From Saccoglossus kowalevskii (Eukaryota > Hemichordata > Enteropneusta > Harrimaniidae), in assembly GCF_000003605.2 (NCBI RefSeq), contig NW_003112484.1:11354-41686 (forward strand): DNA of 30,333 nucleotides. Reading direction: 5' to 3'. Under the pieces are notes generated by a model. That model had not been told where the DNA came from. It saw only the letters and a program-made list of their open reading frames with translations, and did no database searches. Position numbers and translations under genes: made by a program. Below are positions 1-27,549 of this stretch, piece by piece (the stretch's first letter is position 1; every line of letters starts with the position of its first letter).

Positions 1-251
1 CCAGCTGACCGTCGGACGATACTGTCTCTCAACGGAAGATCGTCGGCGCATTTCAGATATTGTTGGTTACGCCAGAATCTGGAACTGTAAACCAAACTGC
101 TTCTTGTCAAGCAATTGTTTCTCGTTCACCGACTACGGTTTTTAACAACTGTGAAATTAACGTGTCTTTACCCGTCTTTACCTGTGGCTACAACATCAGC
201 TCCAAGAAATCGTCCGTTGTCGGACGGTCAGTAAATGACCAACTTAGCTGG
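1..251. repeat. Possible fold-back element, left edge cut by the window
   Basis: Bases 5-20 (CTGACCGTC then GGACGAT) recur in inverted orientation at 209-231, where the two blocks are separated by seven extra bases. CCAGCT at 1-6 pairs with AGCTGG near 246-251. This suggests terminal inverted repeats of a ~250-bp MITE-like element that starts at or before the window edge. The enclosed frame (60-278) is open for 72 codons but has no ATG and no recognisable domain, so I do not call it a gene. Confidence 0.3.
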
Positions 252-596
252 ACTGTAGTGTCCATTCTTAAGAAATAATGAGTTCGTATTTATTACCGTT
301 AAAATATTGTTATTTACTTATGTTCATTTGCTGTTTCATTAAAACGTAATTTGTGGATATATTTGGTGACATTCGTTTTTCTATAGAGACCTGTCACTGA
401 CGTCATGCGGTACCGGTCTATTGTGCGAGAGATGTTGACGCGTTTGCGTCTTTTAGAATCTTCCGTATAAATCCGCACCAGTAAAAAGGCCTGTATCGAC
501 CCCGGATGAAATCGTATAGGTTTTCTTTTGGGCCAGACGAGCGAAAAATAACATAACTAAAGACTTTTTTTCATATAAGATATATGATAAAACGTT

Positions 597-710
597 TGGA
601 CTGGGTACGGCTTTTGCTGTCCTCGATCGTACGCCGGCGGCTTACGCGCCCTCGCAAACTCGGGCGCTTCCGCCGCATGACCTCTGGCCGCAAAAGCCGT
701 ATCCAGTCCA
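597..710. repeat. Long GC-rich hairpin (fold-back element or structured RNA)
   Basis: The arm at 597-617 (TGGACTGGGTACGGCTTTTGC) is the reverse complement of 690-710 with one mismatch, which would be a G-U pair in RNA. Inside it, a GC-rich second pair of arms (about 629-651 and 661-680, CGCCGGCGG against CCGCCG) closes a short loop around 652-660. The 114-bp block is far more GC-rich than its surroundings. It could be a MITE or fold-back insertion, or a transcribed hairpin. The minus-strand open frame across it (571-810) is a by-product of the palindrome, rich in Arg and Ser, and is not called as a gene. Confidence 0.6.
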
Positions 711-1846
711 TAAAGAATATTACTAGCCGATGTTGGCTAAAATAGAGCTCCGTCGCGCTTTTACACTCGTGTTTATACGTGTTTGGTTTTGAGGGGACGC
801 AAGGAATCATGGGAAGGAAATGAACATTGTTTGTATACGCGAAATTCGAACAGGCGCACCCACTATGTAGAAATTGTGTTGTTCACTGGCAAAAAAGAAA
901 TCTAAGCATTAATTTTTATAGGCAAATGTTGAACCACAAAAATTATGTGAAGATTTTAATAAAAAGACTTTCATCTTGCCACGAAGCAGAAATATGAGAT
1001 GATCTTTAGGTAAATCATTACCATAGAAAACAACGGTAGGATGATTTAAAAATAGACAAGACATGATATTTTCATAATTTATTTTATTTTTGTTATTACG
1101 GTATGAAATGTCATATTTAAAAATGAAAAAAATAATATTTAGCAACATTTCCCCCTTTTTTGCCTTTTCATTGCATCGAAGTTGTTGGTAAGATAACTAT
1201 CTTTATTTTCATACGACAAATATGCCGCACTAGAGATGCAAATAAGCAGTTTCTCTTGATTCAAATACCGCAAAAAAAAAAAAAAAAAAAAAATTTGTCA
1301 AACAAATTTAATGAAGAACCAATAAAACTATCACCCGCTTCGTTTGATTGTTGTGCACGGTAGCGGTGACACGATTCATCAACTGAATATTATTGAGGGC
1401 GCAATTCTCCGAAGATCATAACATTTATGTTAATACGTTTTACGGAAATACTTTTCACTTACATAAAAGGCGGGTGATTTTATGCAAAACGCGAGTGTCG
1501 TCAAAAGAGTCCGAATACGGGTAATACCCGCATAATACAGATATACATTTGCAGGTATTAAGGAGTTCACTGGAAAAAGGACCGCTTAACCTACTACAAA
1601 TTACCACGTCTGTAACGACTTGTCAGTAACAAGATCATTAAATATCCAATTTTTTTTCATTATATTTACCTATGAATGTATAGAAAAATAATCCCCTTCC
1701 CGAATCATATACAGCCCGTGTAAAGTGTAAAATCAAATAGCGCCAATGGGTTACTGAACGTACTAAAAATTGGAGACTTAAAGGGCCTCACAATTATAAC
1801 GGTCTTCAATAATACTTAAATAATTCAGTCAAAAAACTGAGACATT
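711..1846. other. Non-coding upstream region of the TRIM-NHL gene
   Basis: AT-rich with no supported coding exon. It holds a 22-base poly(A) run (1272-1293) and a small palindrome, CGGGTAATACCCG, near 1518-1530. An acceptor-like AG at the end of AATAATTCAG, about 20 bases before the TRIM ATG, could close a 5' UTR intron. No clear TATA box was identified. Confidence 0.4.
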
Positions 1847-4075
1847 ATGGCGAGTGCTGAGTCAAAACTCCTACACGAAATCCACGAGTATTTTCTGGTC
1901 TGTGCAGTGTGCTCCGAGCGGTACAGAAATGCAAGAATTCTACCGTGTTTTCACAGCTTCTGTGAGCAGTGTGTCTGTAAGTTGGTCGATACGGCTGGGG
2001 GAAACAGTATAATATGCCCCGTATGTCGAAAAGGTCACGATCTGCGAGACGGTCTGGCGGGCATACCTAAGAATTTTTATCTCAATGAGCTCGTTGGTTT
2101 GTTCGACAAGAAGCGAAGCGAGGACGTCTCAACAGAAGCAGAATGCGGTAGCTGTGAAAAGGGAGCAGCACAGACTCGATGTCTTGATTGCGCAGTTGGG
2201 CTATGTGATGGTTGTACCCGTATTCATCATCGCTTACATATTCTGAAGTCGCATCGCCTGATGTCTCTTGAAACATACATCATTACGCGCTTCTCTCAGC
2301 CACCTGAAGTGCTGCAACCGTTTTACTGCAACAATCACCATGACAACCAGATAAAATTTCATTGTGATACATGTGATATTCCAATATGTTCGGAGTGTAC
2401 TGACTTGAATCACGTTCCAAGTGATCACGACTACCGATATTTGAATTACACATCATCAAAACATAAGATGTGCTTAGAGGATATGGTAGACAGACAGCAA
2501 GAAATTGAACTGCAAGCAAATGACAGTAAACAGGAATTAAAAAGAATGTCAGAAATTCTGGATAGTCATTTGCACGAAGAAGTGACAAATTTGAATCAAC
2601 ACATCGAGAAAAGAATTATAGAAATCAAAGCCAAGTTCAATAAAGATGGAGATAAACTGTTGGCGGACATGAAGCGTGAATATCAATCACTGAAACAGAA
2701 CTTGAAAGCACGAATTAAGGAACTTGAAGTTGCTGAGATCGACATGAAAAATGCAAGTGACTTTGGGGAGAAACTAATAAATTCAGGGAATGCTGAACAG
2801 ATGATGTCAGCAAAAAGGAGAATGGCGTCGCATATAGATGGAATGATAGAAAGTAACACCGAGCAAAACCAAGCAGAAGACGGATTTGTTCAATTCAAGA
2901 CAGAATATTTCCACAAAACCCAAAGCCTTGGACTAATGCGTTGTCACAGATGTAGTTCAGAACCTCCGGATGTATCCAAGTTTCAAATTGCAAGAAATGA
3001 AGAAAAAACAGTTGCCGTGACGACAAATGATGAATATTGCAGATCATCAGCTATAACGGAGACCAGATCTAAACTAAAGACATCTGACAAGATTGAACGA
3101 AAAGTGAAATCTGTAGAAAATCAAGACAGGACAATGTCTCTGAAAAATCATTTTAAAGTAGACGAAACACATAAATTGTCAGTTTCTGTGCTCAATCCAC
3201 CTATTGAGAGATCACAATCACCAGCTGTGATTTCCATAATTGGTAATAAGAGTTTAATATGCAAATATGGTGTTCAGGGTATAGGCGTGGGTCAGTTCAA
3301 TAATATCCTAGGTGTTAGTGTAGGTGGGAATGGGGTAACTGCTGTATGTGACCCAGGTAATCACAGAGTTCAGTTATTTTCTGTATATGGCACACACCAA
3401 CGTGTTCTTCACTTCACTCATTTTACATCCGATTTCAACCCACGATATGTAGCTGTATCAAGGAATGGTTTTTACTTCGTTACAGATTGGAATAACAGAC
3501 AAGTTGTCGTGTGTGACGAAAACAATAAGATAATTAGATGCTTTGGGAATCAGGAATTGACATCCCCTATGGGTATTGCTATTAGTCCTGTGAATGACAG
3601 AGTGTATATCAGTGATTACAATACACATTGTGTTAAAATCTACACGCAGGATGGAGAATACATCAAGACTTTTGGTTCTCATGGTAGTGGGAAATGGCAG
3701 TTTTCCTGTCCGTGGGGAATGACCGTCAATAACAAGGGCAATGTCATTGTGGCTGACTACAGCAACCATCGCATTCAGGTGTGTGATCCTAATGGTGTGT
3801 TCTTATTCAGTTTTGGCAGTAAGGGGAATGGTAATAATCAGTTCAATTGTCCGTATGATGTTGCTTGTGATAACAATGGCAATATGTATGTTTCTGATTA
3901 TTGCAATAACAGGGTCATGAAATATGATTCACACGGTGTATTTATATCTCGTATTGATAGTGACCAGGATGCATTGCGGTACCCTGGTGGCATCGGTGTC
4001 ACTGGGGATAATATATGCGGTCGCATTGTGGTATCAAACCGTGGGGATAACTGCGTTAAAGTATTTGCACAATGA
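1847..4075 (+). CDS. TRIM-NHL protein, TRIM2/3/71-like E3 ubiquitin ligase
   Basis: A complete, intronless 742-residue protein. Order of parts: C3HC4 RING at 19-60 (C19-x2-C22, C34-x-H36-x2-C39-x2-C42, C57-x2-C60); B-box 1 about 100-136; B-box 2 at 161-194 (C161, H164, C173, C176, C181, C184, H189, H194); coiled coil about 205-345; a polar, poorly conserved linker about 365-465; then about six NHL repeats (470-742) with typical VADYSNHRIQV and VSDYCNNRVMKYD strands. Family knowledge: the RING recruits E2 enzymes for ubiquitin transfer, the coiled coil dimerises, and the NHL propeller binds protein or RNA. The filamin-type Ig domain of vertebrate TRIM2/3/71 is not evident in the linker, so orthology to any one of them is not claimed. 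The ATG has A at -3 and G at +4. TGA stops the frame at 4073-4075. Confidence 0.93.
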   Translation: MASAESKLLHEIHEYFLVCAVCSERYRNARILPCFHSFCEQCVCKLVDTAGGNSIICPVCRKGHDLRDGLAGIPKNFYLNELVGLFDKKRSEDVSTEAECGSCEKGAAQTRCLDCAVGLCDGCTRIHHRLHILKSHRLMSLETYIITRFSQPPEVLQPFYCNNHHDNQIKFHCDTCDIPICSECTDLNHVPSDHDYRYLNYTSSKHKMCLEDMVDRQQEIELQANDSKQELKRMSEILDSHLHEEVTNLNQHIEKRIIEIKAKFNKDGDKLLADMKREYQSLKQNLKARIKELEVAEIDMKNASDFGEKLINSGNAEQMMSAKRRMASHIDGMIESNTEQNQAEDGFVQFKTEYFHKTQSLGLMRCHRCSSEPPDVSKFQIARNEEKTVAVTTNDEYCRSSAITETRSKLKTSDKIERKVKSVENQDRTMSLKNHFKVDETHKLSVSVLNPPIERSQSPAVISIIGNKSLICKYGVQGIGVGQFNNILGVSVGGNGVTAVCDPGNHRVQLFSVYGTHQRVLHFTHFTSDFNPRYVAVSRNGFYFVTDWNNRQVVVCDENNKIIRCFGNQELTSPMGIAISPVNDRVYISDYNTHCVKIYTQDGEYIKTFGSHGSGKWQFSCPWGMTVNNKGNVIVADYSNHRIQVCDPNGVFLFSFGSKGNGNNQFNCPYDVACDNNGNMYVSDYCNNRVMKYDSHGVFISRIDSDQDALRYPGGIGVTGDNICGRIVVSNRGDNCVKVFAQ

Positions 4076-4426
4076 AGAGTGTATCATGATGCAAATTGTT
4101 GATGTTGATACTCCGGTCCATATAAAGATGTTTTCTGATGAGCTTCCGAAGTTTTTGATTTTCATGTAATCATTTTGCAATTGTTCTGTGTCCGCGTTAC
4201 AACTTTTTGATTTATTCACGTTGCGAAAAATTGTTATACTGTGTTCAAAGAAAAAAAATTATAATGGGAATTTTTTGTTTTATATCGGGTAGATGATTTT
4301 GATTATATCGAATATGATTTGATATATATCGGGTTATATTGGAGAAGATTATTTTGGTTATATCAAGAAATAATAGTGGTTGCATCACATTTCACTTATA
4401 TGGGTTTATAGAATGGAAGCATATCA

Positions 4427-4432
4427 AATAAA
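4427..4432 (+). terminator. Poly(A) signal of the TRIM-NHL gene
   Basis: AATAAA lies about 350 bases past the stop codon on the coding strand, the nearest canonical signal. The 3' UTR would be AT-rich with several near-repeats of TATATCGGGT and TTATATC (about 4280-4370). Confidence 0.5.
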
Positions 4433-5226
4433 TTCAAGCACTGTGAGGGCGATGCTATGGATTTAGTTTAACGAAATAAATAGCGTACAATTTGAATATA
4501 ACAATTTCTTTTGATTGATAGTAAACTCATTTTCAACAAATTATGAGTTTTACTGGACCATGGGGGTAAAATCTGTCTTTTACGCCGATTTAGTTTAAGC
4601 CGCCCTAAATTGACCCTAAAAGTCTCGACCGGCTCTCCGTTTTTACAGAAACGGTTTTTGCACGTGTGCACAATAACGCCGCCTTGAAAAGCATGCCCTC
4701 AATGTCAGCCTACTTATAGAGTTTCATTTCTTGCAAAACATGGTGGCCGATAACAACGCCAGCTCAGTTTAGTCTTTATATACGTATGAACACAGGACCA
4801 ATTAAAACCACTGGCCCAAAAATACAATAGTACAATCATTAAATATACAATAGTTGAGGGAACACACTATATACAAGAAAAATATAATATATTCTGATAA
4901 GCGTGTCTCCTTTCTGACCAGTAAACGCGAGGTAAACAAATTTATCTGTATTGCGTATAGTGGCAACTTTGTCAGAACTCACGAGCTCGATAAGTTTACC
5001 AGGATAACAATCAGTGTGATAATATAACGGGATATATTGTTCACGTATAATTCATGGAAAGTGGGTCAAATGGTATTCGTCCTCAATGGTGTTATTTAGA
5101 CACAAAATGGCAAATTTCTTTCAATTCTAGCAAGTTAAAAGTGTCTTCACGTTTCAATTTTTAAATTATGAGACGATACTCGAAGTCTGGTCAGAGCAAT
5201 TGTATGTAATAAATTATCTGTATGAC
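4433..5226. other. Intergenic, no supported gene
   Basis: AT-rich sequence. A short hairpin (CCGTTTTTACAGAAACGG, about 4638-4655) and the palindrome GCACGTGTGC next to it are the only structures I see. The minus-strand open frame at 4468-4671 looks like chance. Confidence 0.4.
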
Positions 5227-5529
5227 TTAAATATTTTTCTCGTGGAAAACTGAAGTTAGTTTAAATCTTTCATAATGGTCAAGTTTTGAGTACATCTTGA
5301 TTTGTTCTTGCCAACATTGGAAATCCATGTCGTACGATCTTTGTTTAAATAATTTAAGGAATGTCGATTCGCAGACTACTACTTGATTTACCCGTGCCTC
5401 GCCAAAATCAAAAGAAAATAACGTTAATTTCAAATTACGTGCCCAACATGTTTTAATATTGTTTGCTTGGTGAAGTTGACATTTGTAGCACGCAAGAACG
5501 TAGCGATCATTAATTTTTAGAATACGTAG
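5227..5529 (-). other. Open frame of about 100 codons, unrecognised
   Basis: On the minus strand a frame is open from an in-frame stop at 5530-5532 to TAA at 5227-5229, longer than most in this AT-rich stretch. The translation has balanced composition (segments such as KCQLHQANNIKTCWARN and DFQCWQEQIKMYSKLDHYERF) but no domain I recognise and no ATG near the start. It may be an exon, a decayed transposon fragment, or chance. No convincing splice acceptor was found upstream. Confidence 0.15.
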
Positions 5530-5961
5530 TCAATATTTGGTAATTTTCTCAAGCCTACGCGACCTTAAACTCGGTTGACCTACCTAACTTACCCCTAGAA
5601 GCAAGGTTTATATAGCGTTATATGGAATTTTAAGGACATATTTACAAAACTTGTGTAATATAATCGCCACATCTTTTGCTTTGTCAAATCCCTATACTTC
5701 AGATCCAAATGTTTGCTTTAAAAATAAACATAATGGTTTCAACTGACAATATGAACACCTGAAAATTTGTCCGTGAAACGTTTGCTCAGATCGTTAGTAT
5801 ACAACAACAAAAGCAAAGGTTCAGAATTTAAAACTACGTGAATATAACTATAGTCGCACAATGCGTTTATGACTTGTTCGCACTGGCATTAAAACAAATG
5901 GGAAATAATTTTAAACTTATAAACAATAAGAGAATATTCCGAAAGGAATGTGTTATGGGTT
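5530..5961. other. Intergenic, nothing recognised
   Basis: AT-rich sequence without open frames, repeats or signals that stand out. Confidence 0.4.
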
Positions 5962-6069
5962 TAGCCTGACATGTAGGCGTGAGTGACGCCCTCGCCGGCC
6001 GAACCGCATTAGACCTAACTAACGGTTTGGGGCACCACAGAAGGCGCAACTCACGCGACATTGTCAGGG
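5962..6069. mobile_element. Fold-back MITE-like element, copy 1
   Basis: Starts TAGCCTGACATGTAGGCGTG and ends with GGCGCAACTCACGCGACATT followed by GTCAGGG. The ends are imperfect inverted repeats of about 30 bp (CCTGACA-TGTAGGCGTGAGTGACGCC against CCTGACAATGTCGCGTGAGTTGCGCC, read on opposite strands). The same element recurs at 22101-22193 with about 80% identity by eye, and as a more diverged form near 15220-15305. No coding capacity. Confidence 0.65.
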
Positions 6070-8652
6070 TTCAGACGCCCAGTACGCGTGTTCTTGTTTA
6101 TGTGTTGCGTACTGTGTACGTGTAAACGGTGACGATGGGTACCGGTAAGACCTCCAGTTCAACAATCATGTTACTTGACGCATTTGATCCTGGAAATGGT
6201 AAATCATTCTTTGTTCAATTGTAATGACGTGCTCAATAATTTTGAATATTTTTTGGCAATGATAATAACAAGTCAGTCGCGATACATCGTGTGCATAACT
6301 GTATTTGTATTATTGGATAATTAATTAATTAATTAATTAATTAAAATTACTGCGAATAAATACTCTGCTTTCTTTCCTCAAATGTGTACCAACATTTATT
6401 TAAAAAGGTCATTCATATTAATAATTAGGTGGTATCCGAATCAAAACGAAGGATTGTGATTGGAAACGAATTCTCTTGATATAAACAGTTACAAGCGCAA
6501 ATATAAGTGTTCGACTGTGGGAATGCTCGCTATTGTATAAGGACATTTGGCTAATAAAACATACTCTTGAAATAAATAAATGGTAACTTTTCGAACAAGT
6601 TCCCCAGCTGTGGTGTTTTTTGTTTGTTAAATAATAATAATGCAAAAAAAACACGGCACCAACGTCATTTTTTTCTCGTTGTATAATACTGCTCCTAGTG
6701 TGTCATATTTTTTGTTTCGGGCTTACTGGCACGTTTTCGTCAGTTATTTGCGCTGCTATCACAGCTTACTTCAATATTCCGCAGTTACCCAAATTGTGGA
6801 CCCGAAACAAATAATGCAGCGCGACGACGACCAACATCAACATTGATTTTTCCGCAACCAAATGCGCTTCTCTAATGAAATCACTGCACGAGTACGAGTT
6901 TTGACAGAGACACGGCTTGCACTAATTACTGCCAGTGACTCCTTTGATACCTTCCAATAACATAAAAATACCTAGTTAAAGCTTGGAACTCGCTCTGTTT
7001 GTACTATTTGGTTTACGCAACAGGGCTCATACCACTAATTGAATTTCCATAGACGACAATGTTAACATATGACGAGATTGCTATATGAAAATGATGAACA
7101 AAGTTGAAAACATGGCTCAAAAATGGGAAATCAACATGCCAGTAATCAAGCACTTGAAAAAAACTAACATGTTGGCCAGCTCAAACTCTTGCAAATCTCA
7201 GGTAAACAAGACACACCTACTGAATTTGGATTGCACCTAGAGAAATCACTGGAAAAACACCAAGATTAGAACATCCAAATACACGCAGTAGTAAACAAAA
7301 GACCACATGTTGGTCTCACCTTTGACCCAAGTGATCACGCCCTCAAACAGGGAGCACGTGAGAAAAAAAATAGTTAAAAAATTTCATTGGTTCTTGCTAA
7401 GCATTTAAATTGAGCAGCCATTGGTTAGTGGCATGAGACCAACAGTACAGTCATAGTCGCCATCTGTGTTTAAATCGACCCATATCTCACGCATGCGTGG
7501 CCCGACCGCCCTTTAAAAATAGGTTTCGTTCATTGAAAAAAAGGGTACTGCGCATCACATTGCATTTATCGTAGTCCCAGTATTTTAAAGCAGAACTATT
7601 AAATATGATGTAATATTTTGTGCAAAAATAAACGGATTATAGAAAACTGTAACAGGCTAAGACACAGAGTGAAATAGAAATGATTATTCAAATACTTCAA
7701 TTTACAAGTAACCTGTAGAATGCTGTGTGGGTAATATTTTTTATATTGATTTGTGTTGTATTTGCATTAAATATTTACCGAACAATGAGAAATCTATAGG
7801 ATTGGATATACCTCTCAGCTGGCTTCACATGCATAGTTCAAGACTGCCTAACCGGTGCTTATACCAGGATTTAGTTACAGCACCTAGACGGTCTGTGGTT
7901 ACAGCTTCATGTTCCGAGTAATCGCATTAAATTGACATTACAATAGAAAATAAAAGCTGGCACTCCCATGCAATTAATAGGAAATGAAATTCCTGGGATT
8001 GAAACATAGATTTTGAAGTCACTGGTATAGAAAATGAATAACTTGGCATAAAGTCGAGGTAGTTTATTTAATTAGTGCTGAACTGGAGACTGAAATTATA
8101 ATTACGTTCGTTGTCATATAATTTTTTTATTTCAATTTCTCTGAAGTCAAATAGAATACACACACGAAAGGATGTTTTGGGAGGTGTAGTGTATATGGAG
8201 GGGTAGGGGTGGGTGTCATATAATTTGTTCATTCCCAACTCTCATGAAGTCACTTAGAATTTCACTTAATTTATTTTCGCTGAAAAGTTTTCAGGTTACG
8301 TGTGGATTTAATTTTCAGTGTTCTGTATCAAGTCTCAATAGAGTATGAGGGAAATGACATTTTCACTGGAATTTATTTTAGCGGAAAAATGTTTTTTTTA
8401 GTGAAAATGAAGTATTCCACATTATTATACATCTGTCACCGTAAAATATAGGTAAGGCTCTGTCAAAATTTGAAAGAGCAACTAATATTCTTTAAACTAG
8501 TATTTATTTATAGATTTAATTTTTCATTCTGTTCGTGAGCTCGCTGGAGCCTTCATCCCTTGTCTATTTCTTACACTAGATACCAGCCTATACCCCCTCC
8601 CCGCTCATATGGAGTGCGTACAGTCTCAGATCTAAGGTACAGTTGATTATAG
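6070..8652. other. Long intergenic stretch without a supported gene
   Basis: Holds the TTAA microsatellite (6319-6344). It also contains a 10-bp inverted pair GTTGGTCTCA / TGAGACCAAC (about 7309-7318 and 7435-7444) and a small plus-strand frame of about 50 codons beginning ATG at 7085, whose composition is dominated by Lys and Asn. An ATGGGTACCGGTAAGA segment near 6134 resembles a first exon followed by a donor, without any partner exon found. None of these is strong enough to call a gene. Confidence 0.35.
6319..6344. repeat. (TTAA)n microsatellite
   Basis: Six to seven uninterrupted TTAA units in an AT-rich setting. Confidence 0.9.
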
Positions 8653-8874
8653 TTCCTGGGCTCCCTGTGTTTCAATCCACGGCTAGCAAGCAACATCACA
8701 AGCGAAGTTGTAGCGCGCAGCTCAGCTACGACCGCTGTCGACGAAAGTCATCCCGTCAGTGGAGTGCCGCAGTTGCACGGCATATTTGCCAATGCACAAT
8801 TCCATGGAGGAACTGATTCGGAACAGTTCACCGAGATCGGACGGCTACCTATCGTGCCAATCCTTCACCACTGA
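8653..8874 (+). other. GC-rich open block, possible exon or element remnant
   Basis: About 220 bp of markedly higher GC than either side. On the plus strand it is open from just after an acceptor-like TTATAG (AG at 8651-8652) to a TGA near 8872, about 73 codons, with a coding-like segment GGTDSEQFTEIGRLPIVP. A second frame starts from an ATG at about 8812 (MEELIRNSSP). No domain is recognised and no partner exon was found. A decayed transposon or SINE is equally possible. Confidence 0.2.
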
Positions 8875-8880
8875 ATTCAA

Positions 8881-9475
8881 ACGAATCACGTGGTGTGCTG
8901 TTACATTTTCAAAGGCGTGATTCAACTATTAGGGGCGTTTCAGTAAAAAACAACAACATCGCAATGCATGCAAATTCAACATTTTCAAACCAGTATACTA
9001 AAACAGAAATGTTCAGAGATACAAAAGAAGGATAGATATTGCTTTTCAGTATACACGTCTCTGTTGACACAAACCTTCACATATTCTACTCCCAATTATT
9101 CCTACGTAAAATGGAATAGCCTCTTTCCATGTAAACACTCTTAGTAAAATCACGTGATAGGCTGTTAACATGTGCTGTTACATACTTTTCCGCCGGTATG
9201 GAAAATGTGTTTAATTAGCTCTCATTCAAGCAACAATGCAGATTTCCCAGTGAGAGTGAAACTGGTTCGATTCTGCCATTAGAATAAAGGGGAAATTTCA
9301 GCAAAAAACAAATAACCCTAGAATGCATACAATACGCTGGACTTCGGTACAAATCTCGCATTAGTTACAACAGCAGAATACCACACTATATATTGTATAT
9401 CGGCCTGAACCTCTCTGTTGCAATTCCAGAAATTACCCCCATATGTACAACCATTTTCCACCTTAGTATCACCCA
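8881..9475. repeat. Diverged direct duplication, period about 355 bp
   Basis: Matching landmarks occur twice in the same order and spacing: AATCACGTG with GCTGTTACAT, then TTTCAGTAAAAAACAA near 8938 against TTTCAGCAAAAAACAA near 9296, followed by AATGCATGCAA / AATGCATACAA and CTCTGTTG near 9059 and 9414. The copies are heavily diverged between the landmarks. This could be an old tandem duplication or two copies of one dispersed element. Confidence 0.4.
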
Positions 9476-9479
9476 CCCC

Positions 9480-9791
9480 CGAAAAAAACTCTTAATACCA
9501 CGCTGAAACGTTTGGTAAAAATTATTATTTGTTTAATTCAGTTATTTGACTATGATCATGGAAAAACTCGTACATTGGTCAGTATTTTGTTTTCGAACAA
9601 TGTCAGTTAATTAGTTAAACTCGGCATTCTTATTAGAACTACTTTAGTTGTTTTACACACATTTTACTAGACATATAACCAATTCAATAATTGTGCTTGT
9701 TAATTTGAAAATTCGTGTTTAAACAATCATAATATAATAATGACGGTTAACACGCGAAGAGTAGTAACCGAGCTGGTATCCTTGTCCAGTA
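9480..9791. other. AT-rich 3' flank of the small secreted-peptide gene
   Basis: Probable 3' UTR and downstream region of the minus-strand gene. A minus-strand ATTAAA variant poly(A) signal lies near 9532-9537. No canonical AATAAA was found on the minus strand here. Confidence 0.35.
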
Positions 9792-10496
9792 TCATTCTTC
9801 TGCATCATCCAAAATGTCGTCAAGACGTTTCCTGGCAATGGCTTCTTTCTCTTCCAATTCTTTCAATTCTAACTTTGTCTTCAGATATTCTTCTATGACA
9901 TCATATTTACCATCTCTATAACACAGAAAGTTAAAGTGAGTGCGTGAGAGAGTGAGTGAGTGAGTGACTAAGTGAGTAGGTGGTTTGCAATTGGTGATTG
10001 AGTAGTCAGTCAGTCAGTCGGGTAATTCGTGAGCGTACGTGCGGCCTTGAAAGAGAGCCTTAGAGAGCCTTAAGCAAAATATCAATAGTAATGTAGAATT
10101 TGACATTACAGTTAAAGAACATATTACTTCTTGTTCCACCTTAAATTATACGACTGTGTATCACAAATTATATTATTATAATGGGTTATTATATTTCGTC
10201 ATGATATCTGCTTAGATTAGAGTTGCCCATCGTAAATATATTTTTGGCTCATTAATTAGAAAACTGAATCACTTCCTGACTCATTCTCTAAGAAACCTTC
10301 TTTATTGTCAAACAGTATTTTTTGATGTCATACAGGAACTATCTACATATCAGATTATATTAGCTAATAGATCGAACGTATCAACGTACCTATCCATTTC
10401 CCTATTTCTTCTTCTTCGTGAACTAGGGATCCCATTGGCAAGCGTCAACACCAGCAAGGCACAGAACAATAAACTCCACACTTTTAGGCTTTTCAT
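9792..10496 (-). CDS. Small secreted polybasic peptide precursor, two exons, 76 aa
   Basis: Reconstructed by splicing. Exon 1 is 10496 down to 10390, ending AG before GTACGT; exon 2 is 9915 down to 9792, after CTTTCTGTGTTATAG. The phase-2 junction restores AGA (Arg36) and the sum is 77 codons including TGA. The ATG has A at -3. Residues 1-20 form a clear signal peptide (MKSLKVWSLLFCALLVLTLA). A tetrabasic RRRR (27-30) follows, then an acidic, strongly helical segment rich in Glu, Lys and Leu (about 38-64), an internal RKR (64-66) and a short acidic tail (LDDILDDAEE). After the signal peptide there is no cysteine. RRRR and RKR are typical prohormone-convertase or furin sites, so a secreted peptide or processed hormone is inferred. 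I do not recognise the family. The 474-bp intron carries a GAGT/CAGT repeat. A possible further acceptor (CGTTTTGTAG) just before the ATG hints at a 5' UTR exon. Confidence 0.72.
9936..10020. repeat. (GAGT)n / (CAGT)n microsatellite
   Basis: Imperfect GAGT units, then a run of CAGT units near 10006-10019, inside the intron of the small secreted-peptide gene. Confidence 0.8.
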
Positions 10497-10845
10497 GGTT
10501 TCTACAAAACGAATGTAGTAGTACAAACATGTTTTGTAGAATTGTATAGAAGAGATTCGGGTGGATAGAGATAACGGAGGCGAGATAACAGTGGCTTGAG
10601 CAAGTAACGAGGTTTATTACACTAACATAAAACCGCATCTGACAAGTACAAGGACAATTTCTCAATTTATTGGGAATGGTGCATTCTTGAATTTAGGCGG
10701 GAAGAGGATGCATTACATGTTTGTAATAGGTCAATAAGGAAGAAATCTGATTGACTAAAATATATGCGTTGTGATAGGCTGAATCTTTTGTATGCAGAAT
10801 CCAAAAGTTGCATTAAGCTCGAGTGCTTATAATGATTCCCGATAC

Positions 10846-11494
10846 ATGTGTCATGAATTTGTTTTCGCGTATCTGTTGGTCGACTTAATTAACTGATTAT
10901 TAGCGAATTGCTGTGTTATGTCTGTCATCGTGTAGGCCTATTTGAAATTTTGGACAGAACTTGGCTCAGTGATTTGGAACTAATTATGAGATAATCGTCG
11001 CCATTTTGACAGTTTATATTCATAGTTATTAATGTAGTGAACGATTAATCAAAAGATATGACGTATTCAGTACTTAGTGTGATTGGCTTTATGATTGAAG
11101 GTTACGCCCTAGAGTCTTTTACTGTTTTGTAATTGGTTAGAGTTTTGAAAATGAATAAAGAGAGTTTGAGTTGGTCTTGGCGAATACTCCACGACAGACG
11201 CAGTCCGAGAGAGTCCAGGGGCGAGCCTTGAGGCAGTCCAGTCTTGGGCGAGTCTTGGTTCAGCCTTGTGAGAGTCTTGGGGACTTTTCCCCAGGGCGCT
11301 GTGTCTTATAGAGTGCTCCAAAAGATCGACTAAGACGAGAGCTGAAACGTATTTCGTTGTGTGCGTCTTATTTGACTGTAAAGTATAAGTGACTTTCCCG
11401 ATCCCATACCTCAAGGGGACGAGATAGAGAGACGAGACGAGTTTCCCCCCTGGCAAGTGTGGAGACCCCGAGAGAGAAGATTTTCCCCCTGATA
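10846..11494 (+). repeat. Left LTR of the non-autonomous retrotransposon
   Basis: About 649 bp. Begins (A)TGTGTC and ends CCCCTGATA. The 174-codon minus-strand open frame over its right end (11109-11633) is not supported as a gene because it crosses the LTR boundary and matches nothing known to me. Confidence 0.7.
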
Positions 11495-11496
11495 CG

Positions 11497-11514
11497 TGGT
11501 GGAGAATCCGGGCA
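11497..11514 (+). other. Primer-binding site candidate
   Basis: TGGTGGAGAATCCGGGCA begins two bases after the LTR end. Its complement ends in CCA and has the layout of a tRNA 3' end (T-stem, seven acceptor bases, discriminator, CCA). I could not assign the tRNA species. Confidence 0.5.
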
Positions 11515-12951
11515 TTGCGTCTTACGCACATTGACATCCTGTGAAGAAAAGTGAATGGCGAAGGTGTGTCTTTCTTGCGAACCGAACTAACTGGCTCGAT
11601 GGCAGAGACGAAACCGCGCTCAACGACTAACACCGTTAACAGTATGGCACCGATGAACGATGCTGAAGAGATGAAGACCTCTGAACCCCTTATGAAGGAT
11701 GAGTACCGGATAGGACAGTATAATTAAGAATTGAGCGACATTAAAGACAAGAAGATGAAAGAACGACCCGGACTAACGCGACGACAAGAGAAGAGACGCT
11801 TATAGACTTTGATTAGAACTTTAGCTATCTGTGTATTGCTTAGAGTACTGCTCGCTGGACACTGTAACTGACACTGTGTAACTCAGGACGTTGAACCCTT
11901 TTTCACAACCCTAACCCTATTGCTCAGTAATGTAATGTATTGCTTGCTTTTCCTATTGTTTTACCGTTTCTTTTAGTGATGTTGAATTGTATGTATGTGA
12001 GCGCCCAGATCTTTGTTTTAAACTGATATTTAGTGACGTGCGAGGTCCTTTATAACGATTTAAGCGCGTTTCAGTGGACAAGTATTTGCAACACAGTGTT
12101 TTGAGTTTTGTGAAGTTTGATGGAGTTTTAATGAGTTTATGAGTACGGTTTTAAGAGTTGTTTTTGTTTATGTGTTGTTTTCCGGAATACTTCTGACGCT
12201 TTTTGAGTTGATAGCACCTTTGTAACGTTTTTTAATGTCTTTTTGAGATAGGAGTGTGGTGCGCTTATATGCGTATTGTTTGATATCGCAAGCTTTTGTT
12301 CATGATTGACAGGATTATGTGTAACATAGTAGTTTCTATCGTTTTAGTCTTTTCCCCGTCTTTTTGCCAGAGGAGTAATGTGTTATGAAAGCGAATTTGT
12401 CTTTGCATTCTGTTTCCACGCCGTATGACTTTTGTTTAGATTAACGACTTGTGAGTTCAGTTGAAGTTTATAAGCGTATATGACAGGAGTTTGATTAATA
12501 GCTTGTTTATTCATTGTTTATTAGTTACCGCTTTGCAATGCTTTAACCGAGAGACGCATCCCTGGTAATCACGTGATCAAGCTGTCGACTGCAGCGATTG
12601 GCTGATCGCATGGTTACACCGCCACGCCTTAGTTTTTTGACCTTTTGATATAGAGTTTGTAACCTTAGTAACGGAGAAAGTGTAGCAAAGGGTTAACTCA
12701 GCGAACTGTTTGAGAAAAGTGAGTCGTTTGGTAGCCTTTCCCTTGTTTTTGATTTATAACCGTTGATATTTGAGACTTTATAACCATTGTATTTAGACTT
12801 ATAATCAGTTTATTAATTAGTGTGTTTTACTCTTTTTGATTTATACCTTTTATTAGTATTGTATTTAACCCGTATGACGATGAGTGGCAAACGGTATCTT
12901 TGATTTGTGAACGTGCAATGCCAAGAGGCATATCTCAGTTTGGGTGAAGGG

Positions 12952-13981
12952 ATGTGTCATGAATTTGTTTTCGCGTATCTGTTGACCGANNNNNNNNNNN
13001 NNNNNNNNNNNNNNNNNNNNNNNNNNNNNNNNNNNNNNNNNNNNNNNNNNNNNNNNNNNNNNNNNNNNNNNNNNNNNNNNNNNNNNNNNNNNNNNNNNNN
13101 NNNNNNNNNNNNNNNNNNNNNNNNNNNNNNNNNNNNNNNNNNNNNNNNNNNNNNNNNNNNNNNNNNNNNNNNNNNNNNNNNNNNNNNNNNNNNNNNNNNN
13201 NNNNNNNNNNNNNNNNNNNNNNNNNNNNNNNNNNNNNNNNNNNNNNNNNNNNNNNNNNNNNNNNNNNNNNNNNNNNNNNNNNNNNNNNNNNNNNNNNNNN
13301 NNNNNNNNNNNNNNNNNNNNNNNNNNNNNNNNNNNNNNNNNNNNNNNNNNNNNNNNNNNNNNNNNNNNNNNNNNNNNNNNNNNNNNNNNNNNNNNNNNNN
13401 NNNNNNNNNNNNNNNNNNNNNNNNNNNNNNNNNNNNNNNNNNNNNNNNNNNNNNNNNNNNNNNNNNNNNNNNNNNNNNNNNNNNNNNNNNNNNNNNNNNN
13501 NNNNNNNNNNNNNNNNNNNNNNNNNNNNNNNNNNNNNNNNNNNNNNNNNNNNNNNNNNNNNNNNNNNNNNNNNNNNNNNNNNNNNNNNNNNNNNNNNNNN
13601 NNNNNNNNNNNNNNNNNNNNNNNNNNNNNNNNNNNNNNNNNNNNNNNNNNNNNNNNNNNNNNNNNNNNNNNNNNNNNNNNNNNNNNNNNNNNNNNNNNNN
13701 NNNNNNNNNNNNNNNNNNNNNNNNNNNNNNNNNNNNNNNNNNNNNNNNNNNNNNNNNNNNNNNNNNNNNNNNNNNNNNNNNNNNNNNNNNNNNNNNNNNN
13801 NNNNNNNNNNNNNNNNNNNNNNNNNNNNNNNNNNNNNNNNNNNNNNNNNNNNNNNNNNNNNNNNNNNNNNNNNNNNNNNNNNNNNNNNNNNNNNNNNNNN
13901 NNNNNNNNNNNNNNNNNNNNNNNNNNNNNNTCCCCCTGGCAAGTGTGGAGAACCCCAGAGAGAGAGAATTTACCCGTGATA
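12952..13981 (+). repeat. Right LTR, mostly replaced by an assembly gap
   Basis: Only 38 bases before and 51 bases after the run of N are visible, and both match the corresponding ends of the left LTR. If it has the left LTR's length, about 560 rather than 941 bases should be missing. Confidence 0.65.
12990..13930. other. Assembly gap (941 N)
   Basis: Unknown bases. The open frames that span it are artefacts of reading N as open. The gap falls inside the second LTR, as expected when an assembler cannot separate two near-identical repeats. Confidence 0.99.
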
Positions 13982-17278: not shown

Positions 17279-19282
17279 TTAGCGCATATAGTTTTTAGAA
17301 AATATGCGAAAATAAAACCCAGTCAGGCTAGGCATACTGGTATACTCATTACATTCGACTTCACCGGCCGCAGGGTCTGCTTCGGTAGGTTGAGATCCTA
17401 GTGGTAGGCATTTGAAATCATTTGACGTGTTCTGATTGTTGACAACGTCTGCAACGGTGGCATAGGCACACATGAATTTAAAGCTGGAGCAATTGTCAGT
17501 TGGTACAGTAGCATTAATTGCGACTTGGATCTCCGTTACCGGACTTGATGGATCGTTCTCACTGCCCAGATATTCACTTCTAAGTGTGGTTAGATCGGCG
17601 GGGGTTGCGGCAATGCCATCGACTGGTCCCTTGATGACGTCCATGGACTCAAGATCGTCGCTATCGGCGAAAAACACTTTCAGTGAGAAAGTGTCCGGTG
17701 CGCCATCGGCGGCGGCTGCGATGTTTACTTCTGCTACGTTGTTGATTGTGACCGTGGCTTCAATGGTGACTTCAGTGTCGGTGTTGTAAGTAATGGCTTC
17801 ATCGCCAGCTGAAACGGCGAAACTCTGCATAGCCAAATCTGAATAAAACAACATTGAAACAACAATTAATCAGCTAGAAATATAGCGTTAATAAGTGTGC
17901 GGTAACGTTGTCTTAAGATAACCAAATCAGCAGGCTAGTTTGGACAACTCCAAATGCAGTTTTTGGGCAAAGCTCAACTAATTAAGTTGGCAGGCATATC
18001 AAGTTTTAATAAGTATGGGCGTGTCTTTGGTGTGACAAACGTATAAAAGAACATATATCAATATGTTATGACGAATTCTGGACAGAAGAGCCGGAATTCG
18101 GAATTGATCAAGAGATCTTTGAGAAAACATAATTTATTTCAGAAGATTAGACCATGTCTGACCATAAAACAGTTACGTCATCATACTCATACAATAACTG
18201 CTGGAATACTGTGAATAAATAGTTATTTGTGAAAAAAATACTGCCTGGAAGAAATAGCTTATACCAAATACAGATGGAGGAAGACTGTTTTTTTATTTTC
18301 TTCAATTTGAACGGTATCTGTTCGATAAAGCATAAAACAAACACGATATTTATATGACAACGCGAGGTGTGGAGAGCTGTAACGGACCCCTTCCCGTTCA
18401 CCGCAAGATACCGCGTTACATAAAAACAGAACAAACAAAGCAGTGTTATGGGAATATTTCCAATTGTGTGCTAGACACATTTGATGACGGTCAATTTTGA
18501 TGCAGTAGGGGCATCTCAACTCATATTTATCTTTGAAAAGTCGGCATTTCGAAATTGAGCTATACAAATTTAAATTCATTCGATTTCACGCGTTATGCGA
18601 GATCAGCCTTACCCGAACATTTTTTAACACCTGCGGCACCATCAGCAGCGCCGAGTGTGATACACTTGGCACCCGTGTCTTGGTTATTAAACCCGACACA
18701 CGCGTGAGAATAAGCCAAACAATTGGCAGCAATACACGTGACACCTTCGATGGTCGTAACTGGAATGTCAAGTCTACCGGGGGTTATACCATCGGTTGAA
18801 GCCGGGACGAACTGCGCCGGTTCTAGTGTTGTACTAAACGCATCTGACTTCGTGGTTGCAGTGGCCAAATCGTCCGCATTCGTTAAGTACATTTCAATTG
18901 AGGTGATTTCTTTATCCACATCTTCTAGGTTGTCGAAAGATACTGTCACGCTGACGTTGGTTGGTGTGCCGGGCATGTAGAACACGTTAGCCTGGTCTTG
19001 TACCGCTGCCTCCGAAATCGATGCCTCTGTAACGAATTGCAAAGTGTGTTAAATTGTATAAAATTGTTAAATTATTAAAAGAAAAATATTGAATACTAGG
19101 TGATGTTACTAAACTGTAAACGGAATATTTTATTTTAACCCATCTTTCAACAGTTTCTTGTTTCTGGTGTACCTCGGAATCAACATACACAGCGGAACGT
19201 CTTCAACGCCATTGCTAAATTTGATCTACTAATTATAGTAACCGTGGTTGTGACTGGTTAACATTGGGTTAAACAACGAAAC

Positions 19283-19315
<33 letters not shown>

Positions 19316-19490
19316 GATTTTATACAGTTAGATAGACAGACGTGATTTCAGCTCCCAAATATTACACACACAGCATGTCGACTGATCAGATCTGCTCACG
19401 CGCACATCACCGTTACATAGTTAGTGACTCACCTGATCGAGCGCTTGAAAGCGACACAAATAGCAAAAACACTGCAATTTTAAGATCCAT
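17279..19490 (-). CDS. Secreted protein of two homologous domains, three coding exons, 343 aa
   Basis: Coding exons: 19490-19433 (ends before GTGAGT), 19026-18613 (after TTCGTTACAG, before GTAAGG) and 17838-17279 (after TTTTATTCAG). Both junctions are phase 1 and the total is 344 codons with TAA. Exon 1 encodes a signal peptide (MDLKIAVFLLFVSLSSARS). Exon 2 encodes domain 1 (20-157, cysteines 117, 122, 129, 141, 156). Exon 3 encodes domain 2 (158-320, cysteines 274, 281, 301, 320) and a 23-residue tail. The domains share a Thr/Val-rich beta-type N-terminal half, a FADSDDLES / LTNADDLAT motif, a Cys pair before an N-N-Q stretch, a K-C-x-x-LG motif and a terminal AAG-x-x-x-C. N-glycosylation motifs occur at N43, N266, N273 and N294. 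Thr, Ala, Asp and Val are abundant. I do not recognise the family; an extracellular or secreted role is inferred. The last exon could continue past 17279 if a donor near Cys320 is used. Confidence 0.8.
19283..19309. repeat. (TA)n microsatellite
   Basis: About 13 TA units, in the first coding intron of the two-domain secreted gene. Confidence 0.9.
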
Positions 19491-23232: not shown

Positions 23233-23457
23233 TCACCTAGGCTCAGAATTAAGTAGACTTTGTACCATATTGACCATTCCAATGTCTACCTGTAGACCAT
23301 CTAGTGGTTTCTTGGGTGAGTATGCACGGCTCAAGGTATCAGCCAAATCCATTTGCTTTCCCAAGCGATATACTAAGTTCACATTACACTGATGCATCTC
23401 AACGATTTTGCAGTAGTTTGAGATTGCTTCATCAGAATCATTTCCGAAGTCCTGTGA
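23233..23457 (-). pseudogene. Ty3/gypsy pol fragment (C-terminal end of RNase H)
   Basis: A 74-codon minus-strand frame includes VNLVYRLGKQMDLADTLSRAY. It matches the highly conserved YxPGKxxxLADTLSRA signature at the end of gypsy-type RNase H, just before the connection to integrase, and is followed by VNMVQSL as in many invertebrate gypsy elements. Stops bound it on both sides (TGA at 23458-23460 and 23233-23235). No reverse transcriptase or integrase motifs are seen nearby, so it is a dead fragment. Its upstream end lies about 40 bp from the TTAA MITE at 23497. Confidence 0.75.
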
Positions 23458-25243: not shown

Positions 25244-27168
25244 TCATTGGACATTTTTTCTGAGTTTATCACTGGCTGCTTCTTGTACTTCCTCGTCGAC
25301 GCCGACACCTGGAAACATTTCCTGCAGATTCCCCATGAACACCCTGCCCTCATAGTCCCCGACTGCAATATGTCTGTTATCCCTACTACTGGCGCACGTA
25401 AGTAACTGATTGCCATGGGTGTCACTCGACATCTCGGCGCCAATGTCCCTCTCACAACCAACTTCTTTCCCGGTGGTCTGATCCCAGTATCTGTAAAATC
25501 CAAATTGGGTCAGCAAGTTATAATAACGGCGAACAACAATATTATAGTGAAAAGAGAATGTTTAAACATTTTTTCTTTGATATATTGTATCTTGATAACA
25601 ACATTGGGGTATGATTCATCATAACATGATGTCCTTGGCAGTCAACATAGTATAATACTGGTAGTGCGATAAAAAGTTTTTAATTACCTATAAGTGTAAG
25701 CGCATGCGCATTAGTGTTTATTTTGTCACTAGTATTTTATCGATTGAATACTCTTGCGTTAACTGCCAAAACAAGATTTAATTTTAAGAAATCACAGTAT
25801 AATGTTATTACAAAGATACAATATCAAACAAAATATCACATATATTTATAGATTATCTAAATGGGCTTAAAAATATTCACCGTATCCACATGTGTCACTT
25901 TAAAAATTAAATCGACTCTCGAACTCTCTGCGGCACGAACAACAAAATCGCATCAATACATTAGTAAGACCATGGCAACATACGTATGTATACACTGCTG
26001 ATGATTGTGTCGAGTTCTACGTAGAAAGTGGACCATAAAAACACAGCACATTGACCAGGTTTATCATTGCAGTGAAGTTTATGGCTTTTGAAATTTCGTA
26101 CAGAAAAAAGGATACATCCCATAAAATCTAAATATTATAGTTATTAATAAATCTACATTTTGTATGATTTGTAGAAAACCTCACTAATCCATGTAAAAGA
26201 CAACAATGTTTTGTAATTTTGTATAGTTACATAAGAAATCTTATCAGAGTCTTGAAATCAAATCAAAAGTAGTCTTGAGTAATTACAACTCCCTAGTATA
26301 CGTAGGTGTCATACCTTACTGTTTTGTCGCTTGCACACGACATAAGTATTTGTGTTTGCCCAATACTAACAAAACTGCAGCTCCATGCAATACACGAGTG
26401 ACCTTTCAAAACGTGTACAATTTTTATCTTCCCGACGTGCCAAAGTCGAACGGTCCGATCAAGGGACGTGCTGGCCAATAAAGTTCCATCGCCAGAAAAT
26501 ATGCATGACGTCACCCAGTGAGTATGACCCCTCAACGTTCTCGTTTTGATCCTCCCAGAATCATTATATGTGGCAGTTCTGAAAAACCACAGTCGTACGG
26601 TCCTGTCTTTGGAGGCGGATGCGATGATATCTCGGCTAGGGGAGATGGCAACGTCGTCAATGACGTTCGTGTGGCCCCTAAAAACGCGGATAACTTCTGC
26701 TTTTCCCGCAGCGAAGGACAGCAATGTCACCACTTTGTCCGCCCCTGCCGAAAATACCTCGTTAGCATCTCTTCCAAACTTGCAACTGAACACGGGTCCT
26801 GACTTCCCAGTGAATGTATGACGGCACGATTGTGTTCCAATGTCCCAGACGTGAACGCTGCCACTGCTACAACACGTACAGATGCTGCCGCCATCCGGAC
26901 TGAAATCACAGCACCATACCATAGAATCGTGGGGGAACGTCTTTATCGCATCGGTATTTTGCTCGCCACCTTTTATCTTCCATATCTGTACTGTCTGGTC
27001 ACCGGAGCAGGTAGCCAAAAGGGAAGAATCGGGTGAAAAGCAGCATTTTTCCACCCAGCACTTGTGACTAACAAACGGTCGAAGGCGAGCGTCGTCGCTA
27101 TGTTCTAAACCCAGTTGTTTACGAGATCGTGTCTCTTGCAAATCGTGACGATCTTCTTCTATATCCAT
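25244..27168 (-). CDS. Seven-bladed WD40-repeat protein, two coding exons, 366 aa
   Basis: Exon 1 is 27168-26315, ending GTA AG before GTATGA. Exon 2 is 25490-25244, after GGATTTTACAG. The phase-2 junction gives R285 and restores the WD motif SDKTVRYWD, so the splice is well supported. The total is 367 codons with TGA. The start is the ATG at 27168; the frame remains open two codons further up only through TTG. WD repeats lie at about 35-65, 80-110, 122-152, 165-196, 214-245, 256-290, and a divergent last blade at about 300-340 (HIAVGDYEGRVFMGN). GH and WD-type dipeptides such as GHTNVIDD and DRTVRLW are clear. The N-terminal 30 residues are charged. WD40 propellers are scaffolds for protein complexes, with no enzymatic activity expected. 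I cannot name the orthologue. The 824-bp intron is AT-rich without other features. Confidence 0.9.
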
Positions 27169-27549
27169 TATCAATCAATATTCACACATTCTAAAGTCTT
27201 CGGTTAACCTGAAACTACAAACAAAATTTACCGCGACACACCATCATGTCCTGAGCCGATGTGTTCCACGCGTTCCAAGCTGTCATGTCAACGCGACCAC
27301 GTGCGTTTGTTTACTTCCGGATTTCTTTCTTCCGGTGCAAAGGATTATGGGGGCAGTGAGCGGCCATATCGAAAGTTAGTTTCGCAACTGAGTGTGTATG
27401 TACATGATGAAACCGGCTGTAATGTCCGATACCAAACACAGGAAGCACTAGATATCGCGGCAAATAGTGTCACCGATACACGATGATAACATTGGGTCAT
27501 TTAGTTTACATTGTATTGGCCAGGACTTGGAAGATTTTAACTGGACAAA
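27169..27549. promoter_or_regulatory. Divergent (bidirectional) promoter
   Basis: A CpG-richer stretch between the WD40 start (minus) and a candidate plus-strand first exon. It holds CACGTG (near 27299-27304) and two ETS-type sites: ACTTCCGG at 27313-27320 and CTTCCGGT at 27329-27336. No TATA box was seen. ETS-rich TATA-less promoters often drive housekeeping gene pairs. The 75-codon plus frame here (27259-27486) uses CpG-rich promoter sequence and is probably not coding. Confidence 0.45.

Follow-up and report, generated by a model that had tools for sequence, protein, structure and literature searches.

A candidate two-exon gene for a small secreted helical peptide precursor in the acorn worm Saccoglossus kowalevskii

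Known precursors and helical peptide families

The closest described systems to the locus analyzed here are Arnp11 and Arnp15a/b of Asterias, orphan single-peptide neuropeptide precursors which, in the excerpts of PMC4772807 that concern them, are short proteins with a signal peptide, a basic cleavage site and one proposed peptide of about 50 residues. The same layout is predicted on the minus strand of a 30,333-nucleotide stretch of Saccoglossus kowalevskii DNA (the window). In those excerpts the Asterias precursors carry six cysteines and their cleavage site is preceded by an acidic spacer, whereas the S. kowalevskii precursor has a basic pro-segment and no cysteine in its mature part. This is a likeness of kind.

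Three further groups resemble the product of this locus in part. Known members of the CRH/DH44/ELH type are amidated. They have in common with our peptide a single helix of 30-40 residues, but there is no Gly here and the alignment scores are at the level of noise. PTH-type hormones are non-amidated helical peptides that follow a basic pro-segment, and in both respects the S. kowalevskii peptide is alike; the N-terminal residues that we take to be those of PTH-type activation are absent from it. Single-pass microproteins (SMIM20, BhlA-like) have a charged helix behind a hydrophobic N-terminus, as here, but the SMIM20 alignment is weak and the match to Holin_BhlA (PF10960), the only one in Pfam, is below the cut-off (16.7 vs 22.6 bits).

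We aligned the protein with eight references (CRH, DH44, ELH, PTH, PTHrP, PACAP, DH31 and SMIM20, the phoenixin precursor), using 2000 shuffles for each. The score for SMIM20 was reached by 2.55% of shuffles, which is not convincing for the lowest of eight tries, and that for PTH(1-34) by 4.45%, again with eight references tried. The scores for CRH (8.55%), DH44 (41%) and ELH (70%) were reached still more often, and PTHrP, PACAP and DH31 showed no recognisable relationship in the same test; we accepted none of the eight as a relative. Neither the CRF nor the Parathyroid family appeared in the Pfam scan, whose limit was E 10, and the PDB search returned no PTH or CRH/DH44/ELH-type peptides. A search of the S. 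kowalevskii genome itself with the Parathyroid profile (PF01279) gave no match, but its controls were equally silent, which makes this result uninformative.

These results bear on the idea that the product is a divergent member or an analogue of a family of helical hormones, of either PTH or CRH/DH44/ELH type, and a ligand of a class B receptor. One long predicted helix that follows a polybasic site would suit such a ligand, and the excerpted part of PMC5627052 places PTH-type and other receptors in ambulacrarians while its ophiuroid search found no such precursors. Against this stand the shuffle tests and the Pfam and PDB results above, the lack of an amidation Gly, and the CRH that S. kowalevskii already has, as stated in the excerpted part of PMC10508912. 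Overall, we consider a ligand of the PTH/CRH kind, as a family member or as an analogue, to be very improbable.

Gene structure and the case against chance

The coordinates and reading frame proposed in the earlier note were right (Table 1): the two joined exons make 231 nt, an exact frame of 76 codons and a stop. Its consensus splice sites with matching phases were also borne out, since the GT-AG intron in phase 2 gives an exact spliced frame. The ATG at 10496 is the first past the upstream in-frame stops. Scored with splice-site weights, the donor (3.8 bits) ranks in the best 39 of the window's 3707 GTs, and no other donor within the gene exceeds 2 bits. The acceptor (2.6 bits) ranks in the best 126 of 2924 AGs, and a rival acceptor at 10045 is nearly equal (2.0 vs 2.6 bits). 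Retention of the intron would give a 48-residue product ending ...MDRYVDTFDLLANII. There is no TATA box (TATAWAW) in the 700 nt upstream, and an ATTAAA lies 255 nt downstream of the stop.

Table 1. Features of the candidate precursor gene, in window coordinates
Feature	Position	Strand	Length or basis
Coding portion of exon 1, from the ATG through the signal peptide and RRRR to the second base of codon 36	10390..10496	-	107 nt
Predicted signal peptide MKSLKVWSLLFCALLVLTLANG, residues 1-22	10431..10496	-	von Heijne score
RRRR, residues 27-30, likely convertase site	10407..10418	-	sequence; cleavage predicted
Intron, phase 2, GT-AG (GTACGT...TTATAG)	9916..10389	-	474 nt; splicing predicted
Pyrimidine-rich CTCA-repeat tract ahead of acceptor	within intron 9916..10389	-	
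Exon 2, with the helical segment, RKR and the acidic tail, up to the TGA	9792..9915	-	124 nt
RKR, residues 64-66, doubtful cleavage site, within predicted helix	9825..9833	-	sequence and structure prediction
Acidic C-terminal tail LDDILDDAEE	9795..9824	-	sequence

For comparison with chance, we scanned 300 order-2 and 300 order-4 Markov simulated windows for a two-exon signal-peptide gene of 60-150 residues, under three splice settings (the observed scores, relaxed and loosest). Under all three settings the ATG at 10496 was the sole ATG of the real window to give such a model. Since the thresholds were chosen after the gene had been seen, the figures for the simulated windows and for the genome sample below are guides and not formal probabilities, and with that reading a model of any sort arose in 4 (order 2) and 7 (order 4) of the 300 windows at the observed scores, in 22 and 32 under relaxed settings and in 141 and 166 under the loosest. 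Models with at least one tribasic site were rarer (1 and 0, 5 and 11, and 34 and 52 windows, respectively), and those with two tribasic sites appeared under the loosest settings alone (2 and 3 windows). The combination of two tribasic sites with no mature cysteine occurred in 0 of 300 windows for both orders at each setting, and that of two dibasic sites with no cysteine in 0 and 0, 1 and 1, and 10 and 15. In an earlier simulation, which used a simpler rule for the signal peptide, 17 of 200 windows had a model of any sort and none of the 200 had one with two polybasic sites.

The same genome was sampled as 22 stretches, each of 10,000 bases, with 145,930 readable bases in all. A single ATG had a model under the strict and middle settings and 12 ATGs had one under the loosest, and no model had even one tribasic site.

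Codon usage was scored with a coding model trained on the TRIM and WD40 frames of the window. Exon 2 scored +7.8 bits; its first 120 nt scored 7.0, a value equalled or exceeded in 1.2% of the 5448 overlapping stretches without stops taken from elsewhere in the window. Exon 1 was neutral (-1.3 bits), and a different frame of the joined sequence, interrupted by stops, outscored the gene frame (9.3 vs 6.5 bits). The latter two results, together with the frequency of models in simulated windows under the loosest settings, speak for a chance or decayed frame that makes no protein. At the observed splice scores such models were scarce, however, and no counterpart with two tribasic sites and no mature cysteine arose in the simulated windows or in the sampled bases of the genome. 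A chance origin of the two-exon frame is unlikely; we leave only a small probability to a frame without a product, and are confident that this is a real small gene.

Proposed secretion and processing, and the predicted helix

The signal-peptide score of the precursor, obtained with a von Heijne matrix, was 12.2, the highest among the window's 284 ATG frames with 25 codons or more, with the cut placed after Gly22; none of the 1872 ATG frames of the real-genome sample reached this value. Beyond the signal peptide the protein reads IPSS-RRRR-NREMDRDGKYDVIEEYLKTKLELKELEEKEAIA-RKR-LDDILDDAEE, and it has no repeated peptide unit. The signal peptide and tetrabasic site claimed in the earlier note are thus supported, and its remark that a C-terminal Gly for amidation is lacking was correct, as the sequence ends ...LDDILDDAEE and the RKR is preceded by AIA. 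The description of the product as cysteine-free holds for the mature part, although the signal peptide does contain one Cys.

We consider it highly probable that the product is secreted. The N-terminal segment could alternatively be an uncleaved signal anchor of a small membrane protein, with RRRR and the helix in the cytosol by the positive-inside rule, as in single-pass microproteins. The strong positive cluster directly after the hydrophobic segment and the sub-threshold likeness to Holin_BhlA, which combines a membrane segment with a charged helix, would both agree with this, but the uncharged core spans just 15 residues (6-20), after which come NGIPSS and a strongly predicted cleavage site, and we regard a membrane protein as improbable.

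The helical segment named in the earlier note was borne out by prediction: AlphaFold2, given exon 2 alone (residues 37-76) without an alignment, returned one helix, K39-E75, with a mean pLDDT of 91.5. This predicted helix passes uninterrupted through RKR. The heptad register was matched or bettered by 2772 of 20000 shuffles of the same composition, salt bridging by 5454 of 20000 and the helical moment by 44% of 5000; because all three are at shuffle level, we claim no coiled coil. A second cleavage at RKR, which the earlier note had also proposed, is doubtful because the confidently predicted model places this site well inside an unbroken helix.

We infer splicing, secretion, cleavage at RRRR and signaling from the sequence, and the course of processing that we propose is as follows. 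The signal peptide would come off after Gly22. A furin-like convertase would then cut after RRRR, taking off the short basic pro-segment IPSSRRRR. A Pro/Ser stretch right after the signal peptide is a typical place for removal of a pro-segment, and RRRR conforms to the furin rule, so that loss of these eight residues is the most likely cut. This would free one 46-residue peptide, N31-E76, which would be acidic, cysteine-free and almost wholly helical and would act extracellularly, where it could plausibly serve as a peptide signal. Convertases prefer exposed loops, and since RKR lies in the modeled helix, a single 46-residue peptide is likelier than a further cut into peptides of 33 and 10 residues, which is possible but less likely.

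A product that is secreted but is no prohormone would have its basic runs left unprocessed or only trimmed and would work as the whole protein, for instance as a binding helix outside the cell, a mucus component or a host-defence peptide. It is consistent with the modeled helix running unbroken through RKR, with the lack of an amidation signal and with the presence of just one polybasic site outside the helix. The position of RRRR, in a Pro/Ser stretch where pro-segments are typically removed, speaks against it, and we view such a protein as a lesser but substantial possibility. Our preferred reading is that a genuine, apparently single-copy two-exon gene encodes a secreted 76-residue precursor from which cleavage at RRRR would release a 46-residue helical peptide that is plausibly a signal. 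We give this reading an even chance, and put the narrower statement, that the product is a processed peptide signal, at about the same level. That this signal is a peptide hormone or neuropeptide is put forward as a hypothesis with which the evidence is at most compatible.

Copies, surroundings and implications

The gene is apparently single-copy. When the genome (572,110,611 bases in 4830 contigs) was searched with the protein, the matches were its own two exons and a third site, which has 30% identity and a single stop (E 0.57); exon 2 alone matched nothing in the genome beyond itself, and among repeats of at least 30 nt in window positions 1-12980 there was no nearby second copy. The third match lies in a locus (L003, G000:C2728) where frames on the opposite strand, at 249-1629 on the minus strand, resemble what we take to be a Tigger/CENPB-type transposase. 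We rejected this transposon-like place as a second copy and treat the match as due to chance.

Outside the genome, NCBIfam gave only Phr_nterm, below the cut-off (E 0.077), and the PDB two weak matches (E 0.39 and 0.88). None of the 95 pattern matches in IMG/VR and none of the 588 in GTDB was confirmed. These empty searches, like that of Pfam, say little on conservation because the five collections hold no invertebrate proteomes. Rfam returned nothing at the gathering threshold, and six peptide stretches of the protein had no match in the full text of 5.39 million papers.

Several other features of the window were recorded. A probable second secreted gene lies at 17279-19490 on the minus strand: a signal-peptide-like start at 19490 (MDLKIAVFLLFVSLSSARSGESLTM) has the second best score of the 284 frames (11.4), and the open stretches 18593-19048 and 17279-17869 on that strand are weakly alike (34% over 65 columns, E 2e-04) and have no Pfam match. 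The start and the two stretches may form one gene. A single exon at 1847-4075 on the plus strand encodes a 742-aa TRIM-NHL protein (RING, B-box, NHL repeats), whose nearest solved relatives are TRIM71, TRIM2, TRIM3 and fly Thin. On the minus strand, the span 25244-27174 holds a 293-aa WD40-repeat exon and a further frame, WD40-like as judged by eye, at 25244-25561, and a frame at 23233-23457 holds a stretch (..GKQMDLADTLSRA..) that we take to be like retroelement RNase H. Positions 12990-13930 are a run of 941 N, and the long "ORFs" there are artefacts because N is read as X.

The mitochondrial contig of the same genome (L005, G000:C4830; 17,037 bases) has COX1 inverted between ND1 and COX2 (186-3999). 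In these three genes ATA stands at Ile, AAA at Lys and AGA at Ser positions that we assume to be conserved, and AGG is absent. Both the code and the inverted COX1 follow the pattern given for the S. kowalevskii mitochondrion in the excerpted part of PMC3121625 (AUA Ile, AAA Lys, AGA Ser, AGG unused; COX1 inversion), which also states that AAA is Asn in echinoderms and that Balanoglossus has no AAA; an excerpt of PMC2697986 is in accord on ATA and AAA. By these marks the genome is most probably that of S. kowalevskii or of a near relative.

The ambulacrarian receptors for which the ophiuroid search excerpted from PMC5627052 found no precursors make a ligand role testable, although nothing specific points to it. 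The idea that the locus supplies a missing ambulacrarian ligand, in the form of a single-helix peptide without amidation that would be freed after RRRR and activate an acorn-worm class B (PTH-type) or other ligand-less receptor, is accordingly a long shot. Small secreted precursors are easily lost by gene finders when they are split over short exons, and hemichordates are central to the reconstruction of signaling in deuterostomes. If the product is real and processed, it would be a lineage-limited or fast-evolving signal and a candidate for orphan receptors. Without processing, it would still be a small secreted helical protein that belongs to no recognised family and came to light from the raw sequence alone.
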